Part shown: piece by piece, positions 38,924-41,102 of the stretch | Layout of the letters: the number at the start of each line of letters is the position of its first letter | Numbering within the stretch: the first letter of the stretch is position 1 | Source: Terriglobia bacterium | GTDB lineage: Bacteria; Acidobacteriota; Terriglobia; UBA7540 | DNA: 64,000 bases | Direction of reading: 5' to 3' | NCBI GenBank assembly: GCA_020072655.1 | Contig: JAIQGH010000018.1 | Coordinates: 1 to 64,000 of the forward strand | Position numbers and translations under genes: made by a program | Notes under the pieces: model-generated | Databases searched by the model: none | Told to the model about the DNA's origin: nothing | The model's input: only the letters and a program-made list of their open reading frames with translations

Positions 38924-40444
38924 TCAAGGTGCGCAGTGCACCACTGCCGCAACAAAGTCTCCTTTGTCAATTGACTGGATTTGGATTTTGAGGCCTGCAA
39001 GGTCGGCAAAAACTAACGGAGCGTTGTATAAGGGTACGACCACGCTGTCGCACGGGAAGTTCGTCGCCTTGACTTGCTCCGCGGCAAGAAACCTCACCGA
39101 GCGCGTTTCTTGGGTGAGGAACCTGACGGTCTCCCGCCCCCAGTCACCCGCGATCACATAACACGCTGTCCCGTTCGGAAGGGTGTTCAGGAATTCCCCG
39201 GTCGCTACATAGCGGTGTGCAAAGGCCCGGGCGACTTCAGGGTCGCGCCCCCACACGATGAAATACCTGTAGATTTCAACTGCGCCGGCCAGGATGAAAC
39301 ATAGGAAGACCGCGTAGGCGTATGCCTTCCTGTGCCTCAGTCTTTCGTACACGGCGTCGGCCCCCATGCCGGCGAACATGAACACTGGCGGGATGACCCC
39401 GACGGCGCGGACCGCATTGGGAACATCCACAGTGAGGAGTTGCGGAACAAGCAGGATTCCAAACCAGGCGCAAAGCCAGCGGTAATTGAGGGCGTGAGGA
39501 TCCTTCTGAAAGGCCCTCTGGCCCGCCAGGACAAGCCCGAGCAGAAACACTATTCCCACGGGAAGCAGGAGATGGGGAGATTCAGGAATGTTATACAGTG
39601 CTCCTGGGTCGCCGCGGACGTTAAACATCCCTGCCGTTGCGAGCATCGCGATGCCGAGCGCTTTTGCGGGATTAGGAGCAGTGAATACGGAGACCTGCCT
39701 TGCCCGGAGCCAGAAGTCTTGCGGATGGTGGAGAAAGTAGAGCCCCAAAGGGAGGGCGACGAGTAGAGCGGCGCCGAGCCAAACAGCTCCCGTCGCCAGC
39801 CACCCGGTTGTCATCTGTCCCGAGGTTTTCCGACGCCGGTACTCGCTCAAAAAGAGCACAGCGATCAGGAAGGGCGTAAATCGGAAGGCAATGTAAGTAT
39901 GAAATCCCAGCCCGTAGAGTACCCCGCTAATCACCGCCAGGAGCCATCGTGAGGCCGGGCTCAGTTTGGGGTCTTCCTCTCGCCAAGCGCGAAGGAGGAA
40001 ATACAAGGACGCAGTCAGGAAAAGTGGCATCAGGACCGCGCGAAAAGCCATCCGGGAAAGCCAGAGATGCCAAAAGCTCAGGGCCAGGAACCAGGCCGAG
40101 AAGACCGCAACTCGGCTGGAGAAAAGCTCCCGAGCGAGAAGATAGACGAACACCACCGTCAGCGTTCCAGCTAGCGCCGCGCAAACGCGAAGCCCGAATT
40201 GGTTGGCCCCGAACACTGCCTCGGCAAGACCCACCATGTTGATCCAGAGTCCTTCGCGGCCTGAACCCACGTGATAAAAGACCTCGAGGCTACCGGTCCG
40301 GACAGCTTCGAGCCCTTTTTGACCGTCGATAACTTCGTCCCAATAAATGCCTGGAGGGATACGATCGAGGGCGTAGAACCGGCAGAATACTGCCAGGACC
40401 ATGGTGGCGAGGAAGAGAGAACCGGCTTGCAGTTTAGCCCGCAT
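38924..40444 (-). CDS. GT39/ArnT-type membrane glycosyltransferase
   Basis: A 506-residue polytopic membrane protein with about ten to twelve spans. YWDEVIDGQKGLEAV near residue 34 holds the acidic pair of GT-C enzymes (here DE after W), and VGSGREGLWINM forms the first luminal loop. Such enzymes move a sugar from a polyprenyl phosphate carrier to lipid A, glycan or protein at the periplasmic face. A GT2 polyprenyl-phosphate glycosyltransferase gene, which can make the donor, lies 630 bases upstream on the same strand, with the structured RNA unit between them. Confidence 0.78.
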   Translation of the reverse strand: MRAKLQAGSLFLATMVLAVFCRFYALDRIPPGIYWDEVIDGQKGLEAVRTGSLEVFYHVGSGREGLWINMVGLAEAVFGANQFGLRVCAALAGTLTVVFVYLLARELFSSRVAVFSAWFLALSFWHLWLSRMAFRAVLMPLFLTASLYFLLRAWREEDPKLSPASRWLLAVISGVLYGLGFHTYIAFRFTPFLIAVLFLSEYRRRKTSGQMTTGWLATGAVWLGAALLVALPLGLYFLHHPQDFWLRARQVSVFTAPNPAKALGIAMLATAGMFNVRGDPGALYNIPESPHLLLPVGIVFLLGLVLAGQRAFQKDPHALNYRWLCAWFGILLVPQLLTVDVPNAVRAVGVIPPVFMFAGMGADAVYERLRHRKAYAYAVFLCFILAGAVEIYRYFIVWGRDPEVARAFAHRYVATGEFLNTLPNGTACYVIAGDWGRETVRFLTQETRSVRFLAAEQVKATNFPCDSVVVPLYNAPLVFADLAGLKIQIQSIDKGDFVAAVVHCAP

Positions 40445-40644: not shown

Positions 40645-40690
40645 AAAAACATAAAGCCCCTGGCCTAGCGCGGACCGCAAGACCAGGGGC
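40645..40690 (-). terminator. Intrinsic terminator of the structured RNA unit
   Basis: Minus-strand stem GCCCCTGG (40690-40683) with CCAGGGGC (40663-40656), followed by TTTATGTTTTT (40655-40645). Confidence 0.75.
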
Positions 40691-40809
40691 CGGGATACTG
40701 ATGGGATTGGCAACCCCGCTTGGTAACGGGTACGGCGCTGACCAGCGCCTTTGCCATTCGGCCTCTCTTCGCTAGAGAGAGGTCATCACAAACCAGCGCT
40801 AGCGAGCGC

Positions 40810-40851
40810 CTACGCCTCAGCACCCTCGCTAAGGTTACTTTCTATTGGCAT
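40810..40851 (-). CDS. 13-residue leader peptide ORF
   Basis: ATG at 40851 and TAG ending at 40810; the product would be MPIESNLSEGAEA. The ribosome-binding site at 40867-40852 matches the 16S rRNA 3' tail over 16 bases (AGAAAGGAGGTGATCC) with ideal spacing of 6 bases between AGGAGG and ATG. The stop codon lies inside the first stem-loop, as in translation-coupled attenuators. The peptide has no repeated regulatory codon and is uncharged to acidic. Function unknown. Confidence 0.5.
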   Translation of the reverse strand: MPIESNLSEGAEA

Positions 40852-40879
40852 GGATCACCTCCTTTCTAGCGATAGCGCG

Positions 40880-40909
40880 ATATTACGTAGAGTGCCGGGG
40901 ACGAGTCAA
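40880..40909 (-). promoter_or_regulatory. Strong promoter of the structured RNA unit
   Basis: Minus-strand TTGACT (40909-40904), an 18-base spacer and TAATAT (40885-40880). This is one of the best -35/-10 pairs in the window. Confidence 0.6.
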
Positions 40910-40976: not shown

Positions 40977-41102
40977 ACCACAAAGACACCAAGACACAAG
41001 GAAACGCAGAGATTAAGAACCAGAAGGCAGAAAGCTGGCGATTCCTGGTTCCTGCCAACTGCTATCCGGCCTTTCTTAGTGTCTCTGTGTCTTCGTGATG
41101 GT
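40977..41102. repeat. Inverted word array CACAAAGACACCAAGACAC type
   Basis: Left arm ACCACAAAGACACCAAGACA (40977-40996) and a right arm at 41075-41102 (GTGTCTCTGTGTCTTCGTGA core) in inverted orientation, flanking about 60 bases. The right arm overlaps the last codons of the GT2 gene. Confidence 0.75.

Follow-up and report, generated by a model that had tools for sequence, protein, structure and literature searches.

A putatively translated small RNA of Acidobacteriota, divergently related to actinobacterial Ms_IGR-5, whose codons take part in two long-range helices

Introduction

Ms_IGR-5 is a small RNA that Rfam (RF02471) describes as an "Actinobacteria sRNA" and that is traced to Li et al., RNA 2013, as cited in PMC4109619. 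Published small-RNA expression of Ms_IGR-5 concerns actinobacteria only, its transcription having been reported in Streptomyces lividans (PMC8079986), S. avermitilis (PMC8780764), and Mycobacterium smegmatis (PMC10454040); in addition, ribosome-protected fragments are known from M. abscessus and M. smegmatis (PMC4974804). So far, Ms_IGR-5 has been an Rfam name without a function. In the papers retrieved by our literature search, the founding one aside, no ORF, no complementarity to 16S rRNA, and no structure with the helices P0 and P1 set out below is described for it.

Dual-function, or translated, small RNAs include rnTrpL of Sinorhizobium and SgrS/SgrT. These resemble the RNA described here in being terminated transcripts with a short ORF and a possible function in trans; it differs from them in that no sequence relation is known, its own codons form two long-range helices, and no biosynthetic operon lies downstream. 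Rfam also holds the acidobacterial structured RNAs Acido-1 and Acido-Lenti-1, whose covariance models gave no match to our element.

The RNA lies in a window of 64 kb (the whole stretch of DNA that was analysed), where an earlier note had pointed to an undescribed element, either a free RNA or a leader regulating a downstream GT39 gene.

Results and Discussion

Organization of the Locus

The small RNA locus corresponds to the minus strand from 40909 to 40645 (Table 1). The promoter, the ribosome-binding site, the 13-codon ORF, the stems, and the terminator that the earlier note had read there are all present and are conserved in relatives; indeed, the relatives inspected in full have in common the promoter layout, the 5' start, the ribosome-binding site, the ORF, and the terminator. 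Five or six of the six letters of the -35 box are matched in 105 of the 146 upstream regions of relatives, compared with 1/146 after shuffling, and a terminator-like hairpin is present in 120 of 127 unique relatives. The 265 nt fold with -115 kcal/mol (z = -4.3), a value that none of 200 dinucleotide shuffles equalled. No tRNA or tmRNA was found. The first stem, into which the earlier note had put the stop codon of the ORF, does not, as drawn by minimum free energy, correspond to the conserved structure, the covarying helices being P0 and P1.

Table 1. Features of the small RNA locus, in the order in which they are met along the minus strand.
Feature	Sequence	Position	Strand	Basis or remark
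-35 box	TTGACT	40904-40909	-	relatives also carry TTGAC upstream of the RNA
-10 box	TAATAT	40880-40885	-	same register in relatives
Predicted transcription start		about 40871-40872	-	
P0, 5' strand (predicted RNA 5' end)	CGCU	40868-40871	-	pairs with 40830-40827; covariation CRCN:NGYG
Ribosome-binding site	AGAAAGGAGGTGATCC	upstream of ORF	-	sequence
Shine-Dalgarno region, 18 nt complementary to the genome's own 16S rRNA 3' end	TAGAAAGGAGGTGATCCA	40851-40868	-	
Mini-ORF, 13 codons plus UAG	ATG...TAG; peptide MPIESNLSEGAEA, then stop	40810-40851	-	frame conservation in relatives
P0, 3' strand (codon 8, Ser, plus first base of codon 9)	AGCG	40827-40830	-	P0 covariation
P1, 5' strand (within codons 9-12)	GGGUGCUG	40818-40825	-	P1 swap and slide tests
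P1b, 5' strand	GGC	40814-40816	-	slide test alignment
Hairpin P2	GGCGCUCGCUAGCGC	40796-40810	-	complete compensatory change in L026 (UCCCGAC...GUCGGGA)
Hairpin P3	ACCUCUCUCUAGCGAAGAGAGG	40762-40783	-	folding
Hairpin P4	GGCGCUGGUCAGCGCC	40734-40749	-	compensatory CCCCGAC...GUCGGGG in L026
Hairpin P5	ACCCGUUACCAAGCGGGGU	40713-40731	-	stem letters co-vary in relatives
P1b, 3' strand	GCC	40709-40711	-	slide test alignment
Conserved 3' module, including P1 3' strand	GCCAAUCCCAUCAGUAUCC	from 40711 on	-	
P1, 3' strand, immediately 5' of the terminator	CAGUAUCC	40693-40700	-	P1 swap and slide tests
Intrinsic terminator hairpin	GCCCCUGG...CCAGGGGC, then TTTATGTTTTT	40656-40690	-	folding; kept in relatives
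U-rich tract past the terminator (predicted RNA 3' end)		40645-40655	-	

The internal-loop letters AAUCCCAU (40708-40701, between P1b and P1; AAUCYCAA elsewhere) are highly conserved though unpaired, and might represent a protein-binding or a tertiary motif.

Occurrence in Acidobacteriota

The conservation of the RNA was assessed at increasing phylogenetic distance. A DNA search revealed it in 27 of the 40 genomes of the window's own order, with 73-89% identity. A model built on the sequences of the window's own family (R1) reached other families of the class, and a second one, embedding 44 class-wide sequences (R2), retrieved the RNA from 159 of the 299 genomes of the class (73 of 106 genera) and from 63 of the 396 genomes of a sample of the phylum Acidobacteriota, with clear copies in other classes. 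Part of the R2 matches are weak (25-46 bits); the weak ones that were examined individually (L260-L272) look genuine. Three class-wide matches (L106, L107, and L109) were discarded on inspection as ordinary ribosome-binding sites or the antisense of 16S.

Each genome apparently harbors one copy; second matches occur at contig ends in two genomes (G018 and G027), and in G018 the two correspond to different parts of the element. No plasmid copy of the element emerged from the plasmid search, and the idea of a phage-borne element was rejected, the viral contigs being without a match. Three members of the window's own family (G011, G012, and G034; 94-98% complete) gave a match with neither the DNA search nor R2, which implies either loss or strong divergence of the RNA; since these genomes are fairly complete, the RNA does not seem to be indispensable.

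When 84,980 species genomes were scanned for the pattern, at least 119 stretches matched and, among the matches listed, nearly all are named Acidobacteria, Acidobacteriaceae, Granulicella, Edaphobacter, Terriglobus, Bryocella, Terracidiphilus, or similar. A few of those listed are named Verrucomicrobia, Rhodanobacteraceae, or Chloroflexaceae; one of them (L158) is a chance match and was discarded, and the rest appear to be acidobacterial contigs placed in the wrong bin. Three (L148, L174, and L178), filed as Verrucomicrobia or Rhodanobacteraceae, carry a Granulicella-type element and are probably of this kind.

Relationship with Ms_IGR-5

When the whole window was compared with Rfam, no family reached its gathering score. 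The window copy obtains 19.0 bits with RF02471 (E about 0.8-1; cut-off 45) in an alignment that is in register over the full length of the model (1-184), and it was not recovered by a whole-genome search with RF02471. Thus, a clear hit to a known Rfam family, which the earlier note had named as an argument against its proposal, does not exist for the window copy and appears only via its relatives, to a family that is itself uncharacterised.

Two such relatives, both found via acidobacterial models, exceed the RF02471 cut-off (L080 with 49.3 bits and L260 with 47.3 bits), and four others align with it over the full length at lower scores (L079, 26.6; L071, 26.4; L066, 24.8; and L076, 21.3 bits). 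A search of a plasmid collection with the Rfam consensus led to a copy in Nocardia farcinica (L275), whose RF02471 score is 142.7 bits and which the acidobacterial model R2 matches in the same register (E 4.8e-7); a further copy, L276, scores 76.9 bits with RF02471 and is matched by R2 with E 2.3e-5. These comparisons, running through intermediates and in both search directions, support the idea that the window RNA is homologous to Ms_IGR-5. Since its own score misses the RF02471 cut-off, we refer to it as a divergent relative rather than a member of the family.

The two RNAs share the order of their parts, in register over the whole model, the 5' end (ACAC/GG(A)AAGGAGGUGGUCC, then GUGAGGUGGCUG), and the 3' part (GC(C/G)AAU.CC..CAG.CACC, then a GC-rich terminator); moreover, the Ms_IGR-5 of N. 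farcinica also has an in-frame mini-ORF and the P0/P1 pairing. The window RNA differs from Ms_IGR-5 in its host, a member of Acidobacteriota, in the extra hairpins P2-P5, and in the end of the peptide (SEGAEA, as against REVAVR/CEVARR). In the structure that Rfam gives for Ms_IGR-5, the Shine-Dalgarno strand is paired with gCugCc and the P1 3' strand is unpaired, neither of which is backed by the covariation described below.

With respect to Rfam and the papers found, four things are new: the branch in Acidobacteriota, the ORF, its complementarity to 16S upstream, and the revision of the structure. The suggestion of an undescribed element is right only in part, the RNA being a diverged relative of a family recorded by name and expression. 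The comparison makes Ms_IGR-5 older and wider than recorded, embracing both Acidobacteriota and Actinomycetota, and gives it a corrected structure.

The stretch carrying L276 (MT835602.1, 15373-15435) comes from faeces and is labelled "Bacteriophage sp."; its Ms_IGR-5 copy has as neighbours genes for an alpha/beta hydrolase and for a CNNM/CorC transporter, and the stretch looks like a fragment of an actinobacterial chromosome rather than a phage. Matches to CC2171, His_leader, Acido-Lenti-1, and mir in permissive scans were rejected as weak and due to chance.

Helices Built on the Codons

Compensatory base changes were sought in related genomes and were found in P0 and P1, as well as in P2 and P4 of one relative (Table 1). 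In P1, the letters GGnnnCUG of codons 9-12 pair with CAGnnn(n)CC, which immediately precedes the terminator. Strands of one and the same sequence give -8.75 kcal/mol and strands swapped between sequences -7.00 kcal/mol (sd 0.14), and none of 2000 swaps equalled the former, a figure which, like the others of the P0 and P1 tests, is not a probability because the sequences are related. In the alignment, 97.4% of the P1 cells are paired, compared with at most 42% when the strands are slid by 1-3 columns. Double changes include GGGAACUGA/UCAGUUCCC, GGGCCCUG/CAGUGGCCC, GGUGGCCGA/UUGGCUACC, GGUGUCUG/CAGAcUACC and, in L276, GGUGGCUCG/CGAGCUGCC.

In P0, the RNA 5' end (CRCN) pairs with NGYG just before GAGG, and the pair types observed are CGCU:AGCG, CACU:AGUG, CACG:CGUG, CACA:UGUG, CACC:GGUG, CGCG:CGCG, and CGCA:UGCG. 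The helix is fully paired in 23 of 30 sequence types, as against 9.3 +/- 2.1 after shuffling (maximum 16 in 2000). This pairing accounts for the alternation of Ser, Arg, Cys, and Gly just ahead of Glu-Val. Sequence types were collapsed for both statistics, and the search patterns contained neither the P0 5' strand nor the P1 3' strand. Relative to unconstrained folding, P0 and P1 together cost a median of 2.6 kcal/mol in the window's family and of 5.7 kcal/mol elsewhere, other pairings being often preferred. An alternative pairing, UGRCU:GGYCA, seemingly covaries in Acidobacteriaceae; as it does not hold in the window's family, it is not claimed; the RNAalifold consensus was set aside in favor of the hand-tested P0 and P1.

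Conservation of the Reading Frame

In all of the 138 unique copies, the first start codon past the ribosome-binding site shares its frame with the terminal Glu-Val codons, which are conserved. This applies both to the first ATG (126/126) and to the first GTG/TTG (12/12), even though the distance takes twenty values, from 38 to 66. The other two frames are interrupted by stops in 110 and in 138 of 139 copies. What the search patterns prescribed was the terminal motif with an in-frame stop; they left the position and the frame of the start codon free, so that the conservation of the start frame was not built in. In the other classes the stop is UAG, UGA, or UAA. This pattern supports an ORF under selection for translation, one of the two traits of a dual-function (translated and regulatory) small RNA. 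Ms_IGR-5 is very probably translated rather than non-coding. The ORF and the structure are made of the same nucleotides, which calls for some caution, in that small RNAs annotated as non-coding can hide ORFs inside conserved helices.

A Possible Translation-Gated Small RNA

The reading that we tentatively favor, and that we regard as quite possible, is that of a translation-gated, free-standing small RNA acting in trans, i.e., a divergent acidobacterial relative of Ms_IGR-5. According to this reading, a sigma70-type promoter would give rise to a free-standing transcript of about 228 nt, in which P0, a helix supported by covariation, would close a loop presenting a Shine-Dalgarno region whose sequence is complementary to the whole 16S tail. 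A 30S subunit might bind in the P0 loop and translate the 13-codon ORF, a step that the frame conservation and the ribosome footprints on the mycobacterial relatives (PMC4974804) both support. Since the last codons are strands of P0 and of P1, a ribosome finishing the ORF would have to open both; judging from the geometry, a ribosome near the stop would free the RNA 5' end and the conserved 3' module, and without translation the RNA would close again. In its ribosome-gated form, the RNA might contact other RNAs, proteins, or the ribosome. The output would have to be exerted in trans, because transcription ends at the terminator and no downstream gene is conserved. Moreover, what matters is probably that the ORF is translated and not which peptide results, since the N-terminal part varies and those C-terminal residues that are conserved are dictated by the P0/P1 pairing. 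The free RNA that the earlier note had considered is supported by the presence of its own promoter and of a strong terminator, by the apparently single copy, and by neighbours that depend on the lineage. A role of Ms_IGR-5 in translation becomes directly testable.

The 16S rRNA of the same genome ends with ...TGGATCACCTCCTTTCTA (L032), complementary to 18 consecutive nt of the RNA, the mature 16S 3' end being possibly different. The complementarity of its start region to the very end of 16S makes it probable that the RNA engages the translation machinery or reads it out. Extended Shine-Dalgarno sites, in which a long SD-anti-SD helix stretches in the direction of the start codon, have been described for many mRNAs of Staphylococcus aureus (PMC13009471); the window RNA resembles them in its extended helix and differs in being unique, structured, and stand-alone.

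One might ask whether this complementarity is itself the function, the RNA holding or counting free 30S subunits (as a decoy, in hibernation, or as a check that the 16S 3' end is intact) and the short ORF serving to release the subunit. The duplex with the 16S tail far exceeds a normal Shine-Dalgarno interaction, with -39.3 kcal/mol in the window copy and a median of -35.8 kcal/mol in 88 unique leaders; the 14-mer AAAGGAGGTGATCC is met nowhere else in the whole genome than at the RNA and opposite the 16S end; in many Acidobacteriaceae the sequence GAAAGGAGG-N-TGATCCAGCC, with one bulged base, is complementary to 19 nt of 16S and extends nearly to the AUG; and GAGGUG within the ORF is a second Shine-Dalgarno-like word. 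However, the match is weaker in some lineages (the range in the 88 leaders being from -25.3 to -39.3 kcal/mol), and a decoy would need neither the elaborate P0 and P1 nor the conservation of the frame. On these sequence data, such a ribosome-directed role appears unlikely.

The 5' strand and the loop of P3 resemble the 16S tail, and in folding models P3 could alternatively pair with the Shine-Dalgarno region. An internal anti-SD sequestration as a conserved switch is not claimed, this pairing being possible in about half of the sequences and showing no clear covariation.

According to a different hypothesis, the locus would be a micropeptide gene, i.e., a small mRNA whose product is the peptide of 11-20 residues, the 3' structure only protecting or regulating it. 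The conservation of the frame and of the stop, the mycobacterial ribosome footprints cited above, and a C-terminus, [SCR]-E-V-[ATP]-x-x, that recurs in both phyla (the actinobacterial ORFs encode MDSSRTREVAVR in Nocardia and VISDRTCEVARR in a second actinobacterial contig, each followed by a stop) would fit this idea. Nevertheless, the length and the N-terminus of the peptide vary, the residue before Glu-Val swaps among Ser, Arg, Cys, and Gly as P0 pairing demands, and in the window's family Val is changed to Gly with the P1 RNA pairing kept. We consider a micropeptide gene rather unlikely.

Beyond these readings, we can speculate about a cross-phylum ribosome monitor: the 5' loop would recognise the complete 16S 3' tail, so that only ribosomes with an intact tail would translate the ORF and open P0 and P1; the shape of the RNA would then reflect the supply of initiating ribosomes, or their integrity, and act on these ribosomes or on other RNAs in trans. 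We hold such a monitor to be distinctly improbable. To our knowledge, no RNA family has been described as a ribosome monitor of this kind.

Genes Surrounding the RNA

In the window's family the usual gene order is PCMT - GT2 - [RNA] - NUDIX, with the NUDIX gene convergent. Among the genomes sampled, only the one harboring the window has a PMT_2/PMT (GT39-like) gene (38924-40444, minus strand) between the RNA and the NUDIX gene, which looks like a lineage-specific insertion. Outside the family, thiG is present in 43 of the 119 matches listed, followed in those lineages by ruvC (both names being assigned by eye from the translations); other lineages harbor nearby ruvC alone, a Uma2-like gene (as does Nocardia), an OPT transporter, or an aminotransferase. 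No conserved downstream gene in the same direction was found across the lineages compared, which makes a general role in cis unlikely.

The proposal that the RNA is a cis-acting leader, coupling translation to attenuation of the GT39 gene that lies 200 bases downstream, draws on the order ORF, stems, terminator, gene, on the Ser/Cys-rich leader peptides, and on the position of thiG directly downstream in some Acidobacteriaceae, but it is very improbable given that no GT39 gene adjoins the RNA in the other sampled genomes, where in the family the next gene is usually the convergent NUDIX one, that the neighbours differ in the other lineages, and that no antiterminator is visible, the terminator stem lying outside P1. 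The attenuation of thiG or ruvC was likewise rejected as a general role, such neighbours being present in some lineages only.

In relatives belonging to Granulicella, Edaphobacter, and Terriglobus, thiG is often located directly downstream of the RNA, and Ser and Cys codons abound in the mini-ORF; in these organisms, thiG may be subject to a local cis effect.

Lastly, a copy of the dispersed repeat ACAAAGACACCAAGACACAAGGAAA lies at 40980-41004 (plus strand), between the GT2 gene and the promoter of the RNA; eight copies with at most three mismatches are present in this genome, and the reversed control gave none.
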